Source: Siphonodentalium dalli
Lineage: Eukaryota > Mollusca > Scaphopoda > Gadilida > Siphonodentaliidae
Assembly (NCBI GenBank): GCA_032622095.1
Contig: CP136069.1
Span: 34,756,194-34,820,193, forward strand
Direction: 5' to 3'
DNA: 64,000 nucleotides
Positions 3,580-64,000 of this stretch are shown here, piece after piece. How positions within the stretch are numbered: position 1 is the stretch's first letter; each line of letters begins with the position of its first letter. The notes below the pieces were generated by a model that worked only from the letters and a program-made list of their open reading frames with translations, ran no database searches and had not been told where the DNA came from. Both the position numbers and the translations under genes were made by a program.

Positions 3580-3772
3580 CATTTAAACCGAAGACTTCGT
3601 ATGCCTGCGAGGGAAATCTTGTTGTGATAGAGTGTCCTCAAAATTCCGTAATTCGGATAGTTCGAGCAAATTACGGAAGATTTACGTTAGGTGTGTGTAA
3701 TGAGTGGGCTGTTTCCGAAGGCTGGGATTTACAATGCATGTCTCTCCAGTCTGGGAAGGTCGTCAACGAAAG
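3580..3772 (+). CDS. ADGRL: Exon 1 seen: N-terminal half of SUEL lectin domain
   Basis: Acceptor tttttcag at 3579, donor gtgagc at 3773. The exon enters with two bases completing a codon and leaves with two (AG). It encodes about 64 residues with the rhamnose/galactose-binding lectin start: Tyr-Ala-Cys-Glu-Gly, an Ile-x-Cys-Pro strand, and the hallmark Ala-Asn-Tyr-Gly-Arg. The in-frame ATG at 3525 lies in the intron and is not the start; the true signal-peptide exon must be upstream, probably outside the window. In the family this domain mediates carbohydrate/teneurin contact outside the cell. Confidence 0.93.
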
Positions 3773-13349: not shown

Positions 13350-13615
13350 CCCTTCCATGGCTGGAGATTCCTGAAATTTTGGTTAAAACCCTGTGCCAAT
13401 GCATTCTCTTATATATCAGAGTCTCCCATATGGAGCCTCCCATATATAAGAGAATACATTGGCATAACAATATTTACCTTGACCTCATAAGCCAGTGCGC
13501 TTCTCTTATATATGTGAGGTTCCCTATGTTAGACTCGCATATACAAGAGAATGCACTGGCAGTCTGGCACATGATCTTTAATGCTGCACCAGGGCAGCTC
13601 CCATCATAAAAATGT
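13350..13615 (+). mobile_element. C-family MITE (C2), eroded
   Basis: ccttccatggctggag start, two cassettes, gctgcaccagggcagctcccatcat end; TTAA only on the right. Confidence 0.82.
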
Positions 13616-13791: not shown

Positions 13792-13898
13792 GTGTGAAAA
13801 TGAGACGCGATGTCAAGTTAACGCATCCGATGACCTTTTTGGTAACCCGTGCGTCGACACCCATAAATACCTAGAAGTGGAGTACTACTGTCAGCCGG
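13792..13898 (+). CDS. ADGRL: Exon 2a: C-terminal half of SUEL domain, version a
   Basis: Acceptor ag at 13790-13791, donor gtaaga at 13899. It joins exon 1 through AG|G to give Arg-Cys and completes the lectin fold: Cys-Glu-Asn-Glu-Thr-Arg-Cys, then Phe-Gly-Asn-Pro-Cys, then Lys-Tyr-Leu-Glu-Val-Glu-Tyr-Tyr-Cys. The length is 107 nt. The exon leaves one base over. A second exon of the same type lies at 16472-16581; only one of the two can be used without a frameshift. Confidence 0.92.
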
Positions 13899-14121
13899 GT
13901 AAGATGCCTGCTCCGGAAACTTGGCATGGCATCTGGTGTGTTCAGCATGGATATTATTTAATCGATTATAAACAAATCTTGCTTGCTCAGATGTGTGTGA
14001 TTGTGTGTCGATCCTATATATATGTATACAGTATACAGTTTTTGGAGGTATAATGAAGCCATGGTACATTATGCCCTAAATAATCAACATTGTTCTCCAC
14101 TTGAGGCAAATAAAATATGTA

Positions 14122-14333
14122 CAGTAATGTCCTAAATAATCGACTCCTTATCCACAGCAGAATTATGGGTAATTTTTCAGGATTTAGTCGGAAATATGGC
14201 TTGTTGCCATTCATCGGAAAGCTCTCACTGAGACCTTTCCGATGAATGGCAACAAGCCATATTTCCTACTAAATACTGAAAAGTTACCCATAATTCTGCA
14301 GTGGTTAGGAGTCGATTATTTAGGGCATTACTA
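14122..14333 (+). mobile_element. D-family MITE (D5)
   Basis: Full palindrome starting CAGTAATGTCC. Lies in intron between exons 2a and 2b, with 35-bp left flank shared with D1. Confidence 0.9.
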
Positions 14334-14577
14334 TATACGTACTATGATAGAGAATTGTCATATTGGTCCCATTCAGTTAACCAACCATCTATATATTATT
14401 GAGTATTTATTATATGGAATATTTAATATTCATTTGAGGTCAATTCAGTCAAATACACCAAACATTTGGATACTAAGAAAGACCTATTATTTAAATGATA
14501 AAGCAATGATTCAAAATTTGGCATTATATACACACTGGACACCCAATATGTCTACAAGCAACTCTGATCATCTCTAC

Positions 14578-14673
14578 AGTAATGCCCAAAGTCTATGACA
14601 ATTTAACCACAGCAGAATTATGGGAACCATAATTCTGCTGTGGTTGAGGAGTCGATTATTTAGGGCATTACTG
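14578..14673 (+). mobile_element. D-family MITE, mini form (D6)
   Basis: Only the outer arms remain: CAGTAATGCC...agcagaattatggg / ccataattctgct...GGCATTACTG. Also between exons 2a and 2b. Confidence 0.88.
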
Positions 14674-14720
14674 TACATAATCTGAAATAAACACTCCTAA
14701 ATTACTCTTTCTTTTGCTTC

Positions 14721-14742
14721 GGGGGGGGGGGGGGGGGGGGGG
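14721..14742 (+). repeat. Poly-G tract (22 G)
   Basis: Uninterrupted run of 22 G in the intron between exons 2a and 2b. Length is prone to assembly error. Confidence 0.95.
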
Positions 14743-14952
14743 TAAATAATATTGGATTTGAGCCGAGGAAACCATTATTCATCAAAGTTCTTGTTGATAT
14801 AATCTGGGTTTATTGGGTGCTGTTCACCCAGTGAATGCATAAAGCTCAGATTTGTATATATGAGGTATCTATTCTATAGTTATACTACCGAGAAAAGATT
14901 TGAACACTGAGCTTCAATACTTAAGTATTTTAGCCTATATGAAGACAGTTAA

Positions 14953-15204
14953 CCCTTTGATGACTGGAGCGTTCTGATTTTTTGCGAAAACTCTGTGCCA
15001 ATGCATTCTCTTATACATGCGAGTCGCCCATAGGGCACCTCACATTATAAGAGAAAGCATTGGCCTAACAAAATTTACCTTGATCTTGTAAGCCAGTGTA
15101 TTCACTTATATATAAGAAGCTCCCTATGGGAGACTCGCATATATAAGAGAATGCACTGCACATGGTCTTAATGCTGCACCAGCGTAGCTCCCATCATCAA
15201 AGTG
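14953..15204 (+). mobile_element. C-family TTAA MITE (C3)
   Basis: CCCTTTGATGACTGGAGC...GCTCCCATCATCAAAGTG, TTAA both sides; between exons 2a and 2b. Confidence 0.88.
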
Positions 15205-15523
15205 TTAATGAAATCCACAAGAATGCTAAGCTTATCACACTGATTCAATTCCTCTTCATTTGCTGAATGATTCTCAAGCATTTTAGTTTTAATTCACAAT
15301 GAGCTGGTAACTCTGACAGTGATCCAAGGGGAAGAACTCTATCTTGCTCTTGATTTAGTTGTCTTGTTTTTAGAGTAGCTTGCAGTGTGATGTAGCGCCA
15401 TCTGTATTTTGTAGGAAATACTAATCTAGTTTACTAATACTAACAATCTTAATTACTTGGCAATAATTATCAGTGGGTAAAATAGATATTCTGCTGAATA
15501 ATAAAGTGGGAATTACAGTTTAA

Positions 15524-15783
15524 CCCTTTCATGACTGCATGTAGCTTCCTGAAATTTTGTGAAAACCCTGTGTCAATGCATTATTTTATATATATGCAAG
15601 TCTTCACTTGGGAGTCTCACATATATAAACAAATTTATTAGCCTAACAATATTTACATTGACCTTGTAAGCCAGTGCATTCTCTTATATATGCGAGGCTC
15701 CCTATGGGAGACTCGCATATATAAGAGAATGCACTGGCACAGGGTGTTTAATGCTGCACAGCGCAGCTCCAATCATGAAAGGG
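15524..15783 (+). mobile_element. C-family TTAA MITE (C4)
   Basis: CCCTTTCATGACTG...GCTCCAATCATGAAAGGG; two cassettes; between exons 2a and 2b. Confidence 0.88.
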
Positions 15784-16469
15784 TTTAATATTGTGTTTCT
15801 CATTGTCTTTTCTGCACCAGTGTTGGTACATGTGTAACTGCATCACTATAAATTTAGTTATATGGATCCAGATCTGAATATAACACCTTGCCCGGTTTTA
15901 GTGATTTTCATTGAAAGTGCGTTTGGAGACAAATAATGTATAACATTTACAAAATGAATAATTGCCTATGAATATTCATCAGTGTCGCATATTAATTTAT
16001 TTGATGGCAATAACCTGGTCCAGGAGAAGAATTAGAACACCACCTGAATCGTCAGTGATTCATTGTGAATCATGAATTGTCGTAGGAATCGTGAGCTATT
16101 TCATAAGAATCAAGTGTAATTTTATGAGACTTGAAAATTGAAATGAAGGCAACTGCGTAAAGCTTTTGTGGTTGATTTCGCCTTGAGAATAACATCAGTC
16201 CTTGAAATTGGTCATGGCAATAAGCTTTGCCGTGGGATATTTTTTCTAATTTTCGAGGGCTGAGTAATATATATATTTCAGATTTCTGATGAAAATTAAG
16301 CTGATTTACCAATTATTATTAACTAACTCAATATCTGCATGATTGCTTGAAAACCCCGCCTCTGTTTTGCTGTTATATACTACATTTAATCCATAGTATA
16401 GTAACCCGCCCGACTCCCCTGGCTTTGATTGAGTTTGCCTATGACTAAATTGCATGTTTGCATTTGTTT
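15784..16469. other. Intron sequence before exon 2b
   Basis: No repeat family recognised. Contains the acceptor region of exon 2b; any splicing control elements for the 2a/2b choice would be expected here and in 13.9-14.1 kb. Confidence 0.4.
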
Positions 16470-16471
16470 AG

Positions 16472-16581
16472 GTGTGATGGCTGGCATACGTGCACCTTGA
16501 AAGCAAACAATGACGAGTTTGGTGGCGATCCATGTCCACTCACGAGCAAATATATCGAAATCCAGTATAACTGTGAACCAG
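16472..16581 (+). CDS. ADGRL: Exon 2b: alternative C-terminal half of SUEL domain
   Basis: Acceptor ag at 16470-16471, donor gtgaga at 16582, 110 nt. It has the same entry and exit phases as exon 2a and the same motif skeleton: Cys-Asp-Gly-Trp-His-Thr-Cys, Phe-Gly-Gly-Asp-Pro-Cys, Lys-Tyr-Ile-Glu-Ile-Gln-Tyr-Asn-Cys. It is clearly a duplicate of 13792-13898 that has diverged in the loops. Splicing both in series gives a stop codon after nine codons of this exon, so this is a mutually exclusive alternative rather than a second domain. No separate N-terminal half was seen between the two. Confidence 0.9.
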
Positions 16582-16772: not shown

Positions 16773-17003
16773 CACTTTGAGTGCCAGGGGCCGATCTCAT
16801 CGGCCCTGATCCTACAAAATAAGTCTGTTAAAGAATATAAGAATAAATTATTAAAATTGTAAAAAATTGTAAAAAAAAAAATTGTTAGGCCAATGCATTC
16901 TCTTATATATGCGAGGCGACCTATGGTCGACTCGCATATATAAGAGAATGCATTGGCACAGGGTATATGGCTTGATACAAAAATCGACCTGGCACTCAAA
17001 GGG
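16773..17003 (+). mobile_element. B-family TTAA MITE (B1)
   Basis: CACTTTGAGTGCCAGGGGCC...GGCACTCAAAGGG, one hairpin cassette. Represents the intact (unoccupied) B interior. Confidence 0.9.
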
Positions 17004-19840: not shown

Positions 19841-19876
19841 GGGAGGATTTATCAAGAAAAATTGCGACTACTCCTG
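19841..19876 (+). CDS. ADGRL: Microexon in linker (36 nt)
   Basis: Acceptor tcgtttttag, donor gtacgt. It adds 12 residues (Gly-Glu-Asp-Leu-Ser-Arg-Lys-Ile-Ala-Thr-Thr-Pro). Entry and exit phases are identical, so it can be kept or skipped without changing frame. Its support is strong splice sites and phase agreement with the exons on both sides; it has no domain signature, so it is less sure than the other exons. Confidence 0.62.
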
Positions 19877-21589: not shown

Positions 21590-22042
21590 CATCAACTCTC
21601 GCACCACATTCGACACGCAAAACATCTTCTGTACACAATTCCATATATCCCGAACACGATATTCTCATCAATATTCCAAAAAAATATCACAGCTCAAAAA
21701 AGCCTGCATCAAAAACATCGAAAAACGAGGCTCATAAAAAATTGGTTAATTTGAGTTTTAGTGAGAATATAGACCTGTACAATAGACTATCTGAACAACT
21801 GGTTATCAATGGAAAAACTGATAAATCCTTGTTACACCCGATCAAAATAGAGGATTCTGTGATTCTAAATGAAAATCAGGATTCAACTTTCATCAACAAG
21901 GTGACACTTCCACGAGCCGATGTACTGCCTGACTTGGATAAAATTTCGAAGCAAAGAGCTTCAGTAGAAACATCTGTACATATGTTTGGTAAATCTACTT
22001 ACAAATCACACATGGACCATGCTCAATCTACAAGGCCAGATA
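21590..22042 (+). CDS. ADGRL: Linker exon, Ser/Lys/His-rich
   Basis: Acceptor tcctttcag at 21589, donor gtaagt at 22043, 453 nt, about 151 residues. The sequence is polar, with many Ser, Lys, His and Asn and no cysteine, consistent with an extended O-glycosylated stalk between lectin and HRM domains. The open frame runs past the donor into the intron, but the donor is a perfect consensus and gives the phase needed for the next exon. Its phases are symmetric, so it is skippable in principle. Confidence 0.83.
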
Positions 22043-25715: not shown

Positions 25716-26045
25716 CCCTTTACCCAACAAACCGGCCAAAAACGGCCAAATAAAGCTGCAACAGCCTAAATTATCTTGGGTCTGTCTCAATAAAACCATA
25801 CAAATATGGATATCATTGGAACCGGCTCATTGACCACATTGTGATGGTTACAGTTATGCCCTGTGCCAATGCATTCTCTTATATATGCGAGTCGACCATA
25901 GGTTGCCTCGCATATATAAGAGAATGCATTGGCCTAAAAAAATGTGTTAAGCCAATACATTCTCTTATATATGCGAGGCGACCTATGGTCGACTCGCATA
26001 TATAATAGAATACATTGGCACAGGGCCCTTCTGTTGGGTAAAGGG
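25716..26045 (-). mobile_element. A-family TTAA MITE (A5)
   Basis: Reverse orientation, TTAA at 25712-25715 and 26046-26049; spacer between the two cassettes reduced to a few bases. Confidence 0.92.
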
Positions 26046-26596: not shown

Positions 26597-27247
26597 AAGA
26601 TCCTCTGCCGGATTTTAATCAGCCTATCACTGTTCCCACTGGTGCTAAAATAACTACAAGACCAAAGATCGAAACAACTGCTGCACCGACCGAGATCTTT
26701 GGCGATGTATTCAATCCAGATAAGCCAAAGCCAGATAAAATACCTCATAAACACAAGACAAAAGAAATTCCACCTCGACTAGACCCGCTACCGAAAACTC
26801 ATTTGGAAAAAGACGATATTTTTCCTGAAAAAAATACATTTAAGGCTGATCAGGAAAATAAAACGCCTCCTCTCGATTGGAACAAACCTCCTCCAACTGA
26901 TTCAGCTGATGGTCAGCATGAAACAGTTTCAAAAGATAAGAAAATTGAGGGTGATTCCTCAACCGATGACTCACAGTATATTGATGATCATTTAGCTGAG
27001 TCTGACAATAAACAGCCACCACGACATAGAGAACATCAATCTTCGTCACACGAGGATGGAAAACAGCCTCCTGTCGATGAACCAAAACATCCACATGATC
27101 GACAACGTCCTCCACATAAAGAGCCACATACGAAACCACATATCGAAGCATATGACGGGGGTTGTGATTCGATAATTTTCAAAGGAGTTGAATGGCCCGT
27201 TACTATGATCGGTGATATCGCCAAGGCTCCATGTCCAACAGGTTATG
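26597..27247 (+). CDS. ADGRL: Long Pro/Lys/His linker exon running into HRM start
   Basis: Acceptor tttgcag at 26596, donor gtacgt at 27248, 651 nt, about 217 residues. Residues 264 to about 450 are rich in Pro, Lys, Asp and His (for example Pro-Pro-His-Lys-Glu-Pro-His), again a stalk. The last 28 residues begin the hormone-receptor motif: Gly-Gly-Cys-Asp, then Glu-Trp-Pro-Val-Thr, then Ala-Pro-Cys-Pro-Thr-Gly-Tyr. A D-family MITE fragment begins only 13 bp past the donor. Confidence 0.93.
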
Positions 27248-32389: not shown

Positions 32390-32579
32390 GGAGTTCTAGA
32401 GACAGGTGATAGCCTTCTCTCTCCTTCAAAGAGACTGGTGTGGTCCAAGCTACGAACCAAAGAGAGACATCATGCCGCTTCAGCTATCGCCAACAACATG
32501 GAGACGGCTGGTTACACCATCATATCAACCTTAGACAAACATAAGTCTACCACTGTCGAAATTCTCGGAGAAAACTTGG
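32390..32579 (+). CDS. ADGRL: GAIN subdomain A exon 2
   Basis: Acceptor ttcatttag, donor gtaagt, 190 nt, leaving one base. It encodes helical sequence including Ile-Ala-Asn-Asn-Met-Glu and Val-Glu-Ile-Leu-Gly-Glu-Asn-Leu, in line with the GAIN A-to-B transition (the Asn-rich 'NLE' helix and first strand). Its function is inferred from its position between HRM and GPS. Confidence 0.88.
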
Positions 32580-34717: not shown

Positions 34718-34959
34718 GCCATGTGGAGGTTGTATATATACTGTATGCCAGTTTGGGGGAGTTACTGGCGACGCACATTCCAGATCAAGGCATCGACATT
34801 CTGAGTGGAGGTGACTATGGTTACAACACGGGAAGCATCCACACGATGGAGATACAGCACACGAACATCATAAACACAAAGATCGTGTCTGTGTCGATGA
34901 ATCAGCACAAGAATCGTAGACTGCCAGAACCTGTCGAGTTCACACTTAAACACAAAAAT
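34718..34959 (+). CDS. ADGRL: GAIN subdomain B exon 2
   Basis: Acceptor catttcag, donor gtatgt, 242 nt, ending phase 0. It encodes beta-strands: Val-Glu-Val-Val-Tyr-Ile-Leu-Tyr, Leu-Ala-Thr-His, Asn-Thr-Lys-Ile-Val-Ser-Val-Ser and the conserved Glu-Pro-Val-Glu-Phe-Thr-Leu-Lys-His that precedes the GPS in latrophilins. Reading through the donor would add a few codons and then stop, so the splice is required. Confidence 0.92.
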
Positions 34960-39741: not shown

Positions 39742-39853
39742 TGATTGGTCAGAAGATGGATGTAAGGTAGTGCGAACCTCAGCCAAAGATACAACCTGTC
39801 AGTGTAACCACCTGACGAACTTCGCAATCCTTATGGACGTCACAGGAACTAAG
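39742..39853 (+). CDS. ADGRL: GPS second half with cleavage site and tethered agonist
   Basis: Acceptor ctattgcag at 39741, donor gtaaat, 112 nt. It encodes Asp-Trp-Ser-Glu-Asp-Gly-Cys, then [13 protein letters not shown]. The four GPS cysteines (770, 785, 797, 799) and the catalytic His-Leu|Thr triad (801-803) are all present, so autoproteolysis between Leu802 and Thr803 is predicted. The new N-terminus Thr-Asn-Phe-Ala-Ile-Leu-Met matches the Stachel tethered agonist of the family. Confidence 0.96.
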
Positions 39854-41643: not shown

Positions 41644-41747
41644 CTCTCCTTCGCTCATGAATTATCGTTACGGATCATCACATACACGGGATGTTTAATC
41701 TCTATGGTGTGTCTTCTCATAAGCTGGGTCACATTCATGGCTTTCAA
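41644..41747 (+). CDS. ADGRL: Transmembrane helix 1 exon
   Basis: Acceptor actttttcag, donor gtaagt, 104 nt, leaving two bases. After Glu-Leu-Ser-Leu-Arg comes about 24 hydrophobic residues (Ile-Ile-Thr-Tyr-Thr-Gly-Cys...Thr-Phe-Met-Ala-Phe) forming TM1. The nested C8/A7 MITE pair ends about 50 bp upstream. Confidence 0.94.
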
Positions 41748-43974: not shown

Positions 43975-44097
43975 TATTTGCAGGGATCGAATGAGGCATG
44001 TCTATTTAATACTGACTGTTGAAATAAAGCATTTGTAATTTAGACTTCTGAAATTTTAAGTGGCAAACATAGTAACCAGTGCCCATTTGCATTTCAG

Positions 44098-44354
44098 AAA
44101 TCTTCAATGTGATAGGAATACGATCCATAAAAACCTGGTGATGTGCCTGCTGATAGCAGAGACCGTGTTTCTCTTCGGTATAGACAGTACCTTTAACAAA
44201 CTGCTGTGTTCCATTATCGCGGGTGTGCTACATTTCTTCTTCCTGTCCTCGTTTGCGTGGATGTGTTTGGAAGGCGTCCAGCTATATGTGATGCTAATCG
44301 AGGTGTTCGAAGCAGAACATTCTCGAGTCCTCTGGTACTACCTAGCGGGATATG
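44098..44354 (+). CDS. ADGRL: Transmembrane helices 2-3 exon
   Basis: Acceptor catttcag, donor gtaaga, 257 nt. It encodes intracellular loop 1 (Cys-Asp-Arg-Asn-Thr-Ile-His-Lys-Asn), TM2 (Leu-Val-Met-Cys-Leu-Leu-Ile-Ala-Glu), the TM3 cysteine Cys887 and the family hallmark [12 protein letters not shown] (904-913). This is the strongest class B2 GPCR signature in the window. Confidence 0.97.
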
Positions 44355-45121: not shown

Positions 45122-45188
45122 GTCTACCTGCCATTGTGGTATCTGTATCTGCTGGGGTTGCTTATGAAGGCTATGGTACAGACAGGCA
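45122..45188 (+). CDS. ADGRL: Transmembrane helix 4 exon
   Basis: Acceptor tgtttccag, donor gtatgt, 67 nt. It encodes Gly-Leu-Pro-Ala-Ile-Val-Val-Ser-Val-Ser-Ala-Gly plus the start of extracellular loop 2 (Gly-Tyr-Gly-Thr-Asp-Arg). Gly-x-Pro at the start of TM4 is conserved in adhesion GPCRs. Confidence 0.94.
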
Positions 45189-45783: not shown

Positions 45784-45896
45784 TTAAAATATATTAATAA
45801 TATGTTTTATTCAAATATTTTCCGAACAGCAGGGAAGGAGATTTTGATCACAATGATTAAGTAATTATTTAACTGTTTTTTTTAATCCCTTTACAG

Positions 45897-45963
45897 TTGC
45901 TGGCTGTCAACAGAGAACTATTTTATTATGAGCTTTATCGGTCCTGTTTGTGGTGTATTGTGT
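45897..45963 (+). CDS. ADGRL: Extracellular loop 2 / transmembrane helix 5 exon, first half
   Basis: Acceptor ctttacag, donor gtaagt, 67 nt. CA|T gives His then Cys-Trp-Leu-Ser, the conserved loop-2 Cys-Trp-Leu whose Cys959 should pair with TM3 Cys887, then Phe-Ile-Met-Ser-Phe-Ile-Gly-Pro-Val entering TM5. Confidence 0.95.
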
Positions 45964-46230
45964 GTAAGTATGAACTCTAATGTTTGCTCTCTTGGGATCC
46001 AAATAAACATACGTGAACGCTAATTAAATTTCAAGTAAAAATCCCCCCCTGTATGCTGCTTATTAGGGTTCCTATAAAAAAAAAATATTTCATTCCAAAT
46101 AACTGCTTTTCATATAAAAACCACTTCAATGTGCTGCAAAATGATTATTAAGAAACATACAAGGGCTGACACAGGGACTCTTGGTTCTGTTAGGGCTAAA
46201 CAAAGAACATTTTGGGAAATTACCCTGTTA

Positions 46231-53547: not shown

Positions 53548-53716
53548 AGCATGGCTCAAAGGAGGCGTGGTTTTGGTGGTGCTACTGGGCCTGACATGGG
53601 TCGTTGGGTTTATGTACTTAAATGAGGAGACGCTCTTTATGGCGTATCTATTCACCATACTCAACAGTCTTCAGGGTCTCTTCATATTCATCTTCCACTG
53701 TTTTATGAATGAAAAG
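53548..53716 (+). CDS. ADGRL: Transmembrane helices 6-7 exon
   Basis: Acceptor atttacag, donor gttagt, 169 nt. It encodes Ala-Trp-Leu-Lys, TM6 with the Leu-Gly-Leu-Thr-Trp signature, and TM7 (Ala-Tyr-Leu-Phe-Thr-Ile-Leu-Asn-Ser-Leu-Gln-Gly-Leu-Phe-Ile-Phe-Ile-Phe-His-Cys), nearly identical to vertebrate latrophilins. Phase 0 exit. Confidence 0.97.
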
Positions 53717-63699: not shown

Positions 63700-64000
63700 C
63701 CCTTTACCCAACAGAACGGCCCTGTGCCAATGCATTCTCTAATATATGCGAGTCGACCATAGGTCGCCTCGCATATATAAGAGAATGCATTGGCTTAACA
63801 CATTAAAAATTATAAAATTGTTAAAGAATGTAAGAAAAAATGGTAAAAAGTGTTAAAAAAAGATTTTTTTTAGGCCAATGCATTCTCTTATATATGCGAG
63901 GCGACCTATGGTCGACTCGCATATATAAGAGAATGCATTGGCACAGGGCATAACTATAACCATCACAATGTGGTCAATGAGCCGGTTCCAATGATATCCA
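63700..64000 (+). mobile_element. A-family TTAA MITE (A10), cut by window end
   Basis: TTAA at 63696-63699, CCCTTTACCCAACAGAACGG, both cassettes present; right end beyond the window. Confidence 0.92.

Follow-up and report, generated by a model that had tools for sequence, protein, structure and literature searches.

A putative pair of mutually exclusive exons for the C-terminal half of a latrophilin lectin domain

Receptors that exchange part of a binding domain

In FGFR1-3, the choice between the IIIb and IIIc exons swaps the C-terminal half of a domain, and each of exons 4 and 6 of Dscam encodes half of an Ig domain, in arrays that hold dozens of copies. FGFR1-3 are among the human genes with mutually exclusive exons that carry pathogenic mutations (PMC5740500), and insect Dscam, a neuronal adhesion gene, has mutually exclusive tandem arrays at exons 4, 6, 9 and 17 (PMC1397879). 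Like both, the latrophilin gene described here would exchange part of a binding domain. It differs from Dscam in having two copies rather than large arrays and in that no RNA-pairing system was found near them, and from FGFR1-3 in receptor class and in the domain concerned; moreover, exon use and a difference in ligand are established for FGFR1-3, whereas here they are deduced. The human survey also reports that 377 mutually exclusive clusters (60%) include exons with a length not divisible by three (PMC5740500), so that exclusion enforced by the reading frame is an ordinary device.

The splice variation described for latrophilins is of another kind. In vertebrates, an insert between the lectin and olfactomedin domains alters the affinity for teneurin (PMC13108381). 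The insert is named as KVEQK (PMC7195488) and corresponds in mouse Adgrl1 to exon 7b, an optional exon of 15 nt in phase 1 (PMC13108381); Adgrl2 has a four-residue mini-exon 9 at the same lectin-olfactomedin site (PMC13108381). Drosophila Cirl (PMC13197933) and Caenorhabditis elegans lat-1 (PMC11540312) also have several isoforms; in the available text of these papers, the isoforms described lack the 7TM or the GAIN part and none swaps half of the RBL domain. No report of duplicated exons within a latrophilin lectin was found among the titles and abstracts listed for the open PMC literature or in the accessible portions of PMC13197933, PMC6629964, PMC6422961 and PMC13108381, and latrophilin, Cirl and ADGRL are absent from the main text of a study of duplicated exons in human, fly and worm (PMC9741552). 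Automatic genome annotation may already contain these isoforms. What is known is the device, that is, mutually exclusive duplicated exons; what appears to be new is its apparent occurrence within the lectin of a latrophilin. If both exons are used, latrophilin joins the cell-surface receptors in which a binding domain is switched by the choice of a half-domain exon.

A latrophilin gene with two versions of one lectin exon

The DNA analysed, referred to here as the window, is the 64-kb stretch C9:34,756,194-34,820,193 (+ strand) from an animal genome that totals 2.23 Gb over 9 contigs, and it contains no Ns. Judged by the order of its domains, the gene that it carries is a latrophilin (ADGRL) of invertebrate-type layout: on the + strand, a SUEL/RBL lectin is followed by a stalk, a weak hormone-receptor piece, GAIN pieces, a GPS and 7TM exons. 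The layout described for invertebrate latrophilins is of the same kind, with a hormone-receptor domain that is sometimes degenerate or missing, and the olfactomedin domain is restricted to chordate latrophilins (PMC6422961). The stalk-coding exon starts at an acceptor at 21590 and remains open to 22206, a 3′ limit that is the end of the open frame rather than a mapped donor. The hormone-receptor-like piece at 27067-27243 is weak, with a Pfam HRM match below the cut-off (E 0.026) and a tblastn E of 0.023. Two GAIN-domain pieces, at 32390-32521 and 34723-34953, match mouse Adgrl1 exons 14 and 16 (tblastn E 0.002 and 0.001) and stand in gene order with the GPS motif at 39746-39835 (tblastn E 3.5e-7), giving the GAIN/GPS region of a latrophilin. 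The secretin-type 7TM domain of a latrophilin is likewise present, the strongest region, at 44096-44353, matching 7tm_2 with E 5.7e-28 and mouse Adgrl1 with 60% identity over 86 aa. It is accompanied by a region at 45895-45972 that matches mouse Adgrl1 exon 20 and the start of exon 21 (tblastn E 6e-5), and by the last 7TM region at 53594-53716 (tblastn E 1e-10), within an open frame that matches 7tm_2 with E 2.8e-9. Two weak matches also fall in gene order, one for the first transmembrane helix region (41656-41736, tblastn E 0.11) and one for a 7TM piece at 45124-45186 (tblastn E 0.067). All of these features are on the + strand. At the start of the window, positions 11-627 form a minisatellite-like array in which the unit measures about 31 bases and 30-aa open frames appear every 31 nt (AGPYLPGRPLGWSLSP...).

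The N-terminal half of the lectin is encoded by a constant exon at 3580-3772 (+), which contains cysteines 1-4, the CEG glutamate and the ANYGR motif and ends AG|gtgagc in phase 2. A preliminary description of this locus had treated it as the first exon, but it is preceded by an acceptor, at 3580, and begins in the middle of a codon. Two exons on the same strand, both running from phase 2 to phase 1, encode versions of the C-terminal half: exon A at 13792-13898 (107 nt; RCENETRCQVNASDDLFGNPCVDTHKYLEVEYYCQP) and exon B at 16472-16581 (110 nt; RCDGWHTCTLKANNDEFGGDPCPLTSKYIEIQYNCEP). Each completes the split arginine of the constant exon, goes on to encode cysteines 5-8, and stops one base into a codon, a fit to the exons at 19841 and 21590. 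Exon A carries two N-X-S/T motifs; exon B has none and is one residue longer before DPC. The coordinates, lengths and phases first proposed for the two exons were confirmed. With the constant exon as 1 and the exons at 19841 and 21590 as 3 and 4, splicing in silico gives a frame that stays open along the whole joined stretch for 1-A-3-4, 1-B-3-4, 1-A-4 and 1-B-4, whereas 1-A-B is frameshifted and reaches a stop after nine codons, and skipping of both A and B (1-3 or 1-4) gives a frameshift and a stop. Both failures had been claimed from the outset and both were reproduced, the second with either downstream exon. All splice sites of these exons are GT-AG. Ranked against the GT sites of the window on a generic matrix, the donor of the constant exon lies within the best 0.09%, that of A within the best 0.15%, that of B within the best 0.06% and that of the 36-nt exon at 19841 within the best 0.61%; on a simple pyrimidine score, the five acceptors are among the best 3.3-12.3% of AG sites.

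The 36-nt segment at 19841-19876 (+; GEDLSRKIATTP) is a likely, though not proven, microexon. It runs from phase 1 to phase 1, could be skipped in frame, and shares both place and phase with the vertebrate KVEQK insert, which follows the lectin without replacing any of it and in this differs from A and B. On the window's + strand, no other such segment passes thresholds that were chosen post hoc and set just under the scores of this one. If this microexon is real, alternative splicing of the linker may predate the vertebrates.

A and B are neighbouring homologous exons with the same flanking phases, and their joint use or joint skipping is unproductive by sequence, all of them features of mutually exclusive duplicated exons. 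It is quite probable that the two are spliced in a mutually exclusive manner. In the mechanism that we propose, an ancestral latrophilin exon, the counterpart of mouse Adgrl1 exon 5, would have been duplicated in tandem in this lineage; messages with both copies or neither would lose the frame, meet an early stop and be removed or useless, and messages with exactly one copy would encode a complete eight-cysteine RBL domain in an otherwise identical receptor. We infer that both exons are used, that the choice between them is regulated and that it affects the ligand; a switch of ligand is plausible. Messages with a stop upstream of exon junctions undergo decay, and the stop caused by joint inclusion lies upstream of many such junctions, as it would if one copy were a poison exon that lowers the level of the receptor through decay and yields no second protein. 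Such a role is highly improbable, as both copies look constrained as protein in their codon positions, cysteines and SUEL scores, for which a pure poison exon has no need.

As to how mutually exclusive splicing of A and B might be enforced, the 2,573-nt intron between them and the GT-AG sites throughout argue against devices that depend on a short intron or on a clash between U2 and U12 sites. A search for selector and docking RNA pairing near A and B was swamped by repeats and found no system: the surroundings of the two exons have 31 10-mers in common, 27 of them with a reverse complement in the cluster, and these counts, which have no shuffled control, look derived from dispersed repeats. 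Rfam gave 0 matches. A dispersed repeat with YICEATYGRLAYIRECIG-like frames occurs at many places in the window, for example at 860-1090, 25790-25933 and 63874-63999, and copies lie near the two exons in both orientations, at 13388-13561 and 16877-16964.

Homology, origin and constraint of the two copies

Scored alone against Pfam SUEL_Lectin (cut-off 31.4 bits), exon A reaches 38.7 bits (E 1.3e-9) and exon B 39.5 bits (E 7.3e-10), both over model positions 46-80. The full isoforms match the same model with E 1.9e-19 and 1e-19, and among solved structures they match latrophilin-1 with E 1e-18 (A isoform) and 1.2e-16 (B isoform). With each half passing the cut-off unaided and 15 of 35 residues identical between them (43%), the initial view of A and B as homologous but diverged SUEL C-halves was sound. 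An RBL profile that included the two isoforms of the window was scanned over 2,953 six-frame open segments of at least 15 aa, and it recovered the three lectin exons with E 1.9e-18 (constant exon), 3e-15 and 1.8e-14, with nothing else below E 1.2. When the window sequences were left out of the profile, A scored 45.2 bits and B 40.5 bits.

It is scarcely credible that the two C-halves belong to tandem lectin domains, with a missed N-half between them, although genes with two SUEL domains do exist. The genome-wide Pfam SUEL search gave five matches among the 12 candidates scored, namely A, B, two C-halves and one complete domain on contig C1, and failed to list this gene's own constant exon, so that a search of this type can miss N-halves. 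The more sensitive RBL profile, which does find the constant exon, detected no N-half in 13899-16471, and the preliminary description had itself named a missed N-half exon between A and B as an observation that would count against it. Nor did the same scan find a third copy of the C-half in the 64-kb window. A gene at C1:107903617-107915688, also split by introns, with two SUEL C-halves 12 kb apart and an N-half between them, served as a control. The same scan over 26 kb recovered its C-halves with E 1e-12 and 4.3e-12 and its diverged N-half with E 5.3e-5; the first C-half's own N-half was not found in the 26 kb scanned and may lie outside it or have been missed. This C1 pair was considered as a second pair of exclusive exons and rejected, since the N-half between its C-halves makes it a tandem-domain gene. 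Its layout resembles that of EVA-1, and identity with EVA-1 is a guess; a FAM176 search for EVA-1 gave no match, but the controls of that search likewise matched nowhere. Searches of the genome for mollusc haemocyanin and for arthropod cuticle families had the same outcome, with no match for the families and none for the controls. The complete SUEL domain on C1 (165324033-165324260) is diverged, lies in one open frame and, by its sequence, was not copied from this latrophilin. Among the listed matches, comprising the best candidates scored, there was no joined latrophilin retrocopy that would record past splicing. In viral contigs, 44 stretches fit one pattern and 0 relatives were found.

In the exon table of mouse Adgrl1, exon 4 closes with ...CAGAG, and exon 5, of 110 nt, opens with G TGT and runs from phase 2 to phase 1 (PMC13108381). 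The introns that flank A and B agree in position and phase with those of mouse exons 4, 5 and 7b as given there; the splits fall at the same codon and phase, and A and B are two copies of an exon listed once in mouse, Adgrl1 exon 5. The sequence that their flanks have in common is limited to apparent dispersed repeats, which argues that the duplication is old. Over 33 positions of the half-domain, A has 18 residues in common with mouse LPHN1 and B has 16, and A and B have 14 in common with one another; with LAT-1, A has 13 of 33 and B 15 of 34. The phmmer totals favour LPHN1 for A (70.8 vs 64.0 bits) and LAT-1 for B (63.9 vs 52.9 bits). A vertebrate-like A and a nematode-like B, which would place the duplication before the phyla split, was nevertheless rejected as a reading, the identity counts over the half-domain differing little.

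Base identity between A and B at codon positions 1, 2 and 3 is 17/35, 25/35 and 13/35, with position 2 exceeding position 3 (Fisher p 0.008) and positions 1 and 2 together exceeding position 3 (p 0.038). NG86 gave a dN of 0.52 and no dS, which we read as silent saturation, and YN00 and LWL85 returned no estimate; the codon-position counts and a simulation of decay stand in for dN/dS. The RBL score of B (40.5 bits) was attained by 0 of 3,000 runs of the neutral-decay simulation under every one of its six settings, the maximum being 39.6, at 78% mean identity. The simulation is crude, with uniform replacement and no indels, and it scored only frames that were still open (236 to 791 of 3,000 per setting) against the profile built without the window sequences. 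Both copies keep four cysteines and differ in loop 2, in line with the first account of conserved cysteines and divergent loop residues. Together these data argue that both copies were long retained as protein, which does not imply present-day use.

They bear directly on a further explanation, in which only one exon is regularly used, the other being an old duplicate that has since fallen silent, wholly or almost so. Selection read from divergence is historical and is compatible with a recent loss. Against this, both copies are open, with good splice sites, four cysteines and near-equal SUEL scores despite a silent divergence too great to estimate, and the neutral-decay simulation, crude as it is, does not yield such copies; single-exon use is distinctly unlikely. 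The decay of one copy, which would have told against the original proposal, gains no support from the SUEL scores, the codon-position pattern, the simulation or the retained pocket residues, with dN/dS itself not computable.

What the exchanged half would change

The disulphides of the RBL fold join C1-C3, C2-C8, C4-C7 and C5-C6 (PMC3269628), so that two of the four bonds link the constant and swapped halves. A lone first half, or A and B in series, should not fold. The rhamnose pocket of LPHN1 is described as “primarily formed by loop2”, with Glu42 and Tyr63 contributed by the first half and Gly117 and Lys120 by the second, and binding was lost or strongly weakened by the tested substitutions of Glu42 and Lys120 (PMC2430599). 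In the alignment, loop 2 lies in the swapped exon and reads PDPCPGTYK in mouse, GNPCVDTHK in A and GGDPCPLTSK in B; both isoforms retain counterparts of Glu42, Tyr63 and Lys120. Where LPHN1 has Gly117, A has Asp and B has Leu, so that sugar binding would be no more than a possibility for either isoform. Among sequence motifs, exon A has N-X-T where mouse LPHN1 has N-R-T, together with N-A-S, and exon B has neither.

The teneurin side of the lectin is a different matter. The residues named as contacting teneurin or blocking its binding are S38, R44, D49, D67 and Cys36-Cys66 in LPHN3 (PMC7195488), and L39, P51, D54, D67 and D72 in Lphn1, which abolish teneurin binding when mutated together (PMC6978801). 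All residues named in the available text of these papers precede the exon boundary (LPHN1 R95) and so fall in the constant half. Given the swapped loop 2 and glycosylation motifs, the earlier suggestion of two lectin surfaces is better read, in the first place, as one of two sugar pockets than as one of two teneurin faces. Our best reading is that the swap concerns the sugar-pocket half and that the teneurin-facing half would stay constant. In mechanistic terms, the choice of exon would replace loop 2 of the sugar pocket and its adjoining strands; the pocket's conserved glutamate and tyrosine would come from the constant half, as would the side with the named vertebrate teneurin contacts; and the likely effect would be an exchange of one pocket for another with a different loop shape, charge and N-glycosylation.

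One specific and rather doubtful form of this switch is that B could bind sugar, as it keeps the DPC Asp and an Asn equivalent to the sugar contact of CSL3, and that A is glycan-blind or has another ligand. In isoform A, these two positions are reversed relative to B (Asp, then Asn), and the same half carries the two N-glycosylation motifs. If true, cells would choose between a glycan-reading and a glycan-blind latrophilin with an unchanged teneurin-facing half and signalling part, a choice that possibly spans a whole invertebrate clade.

The five Lphn1 teneurin positions are Y, P, S, T and N in this gene. Four of the five are changed, so that teneurin is no more than a possible ligand of this lectin. 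The ligand of invertebrate latrophilin lectins is itself disputed, and PMC6422961 argues that a conserved partnership with teneurin is not likely. Two receptors that are identical except for the sugar-pocket half would be a natural controlled comparison, in which any ligand that discriminates between them is read by that half. The genome also contains a candidate teneurin, and hence a possible receptor partner, at C5:192226186-192226419, the only genome match listed for Tox-GHH (E 8.6e-26).
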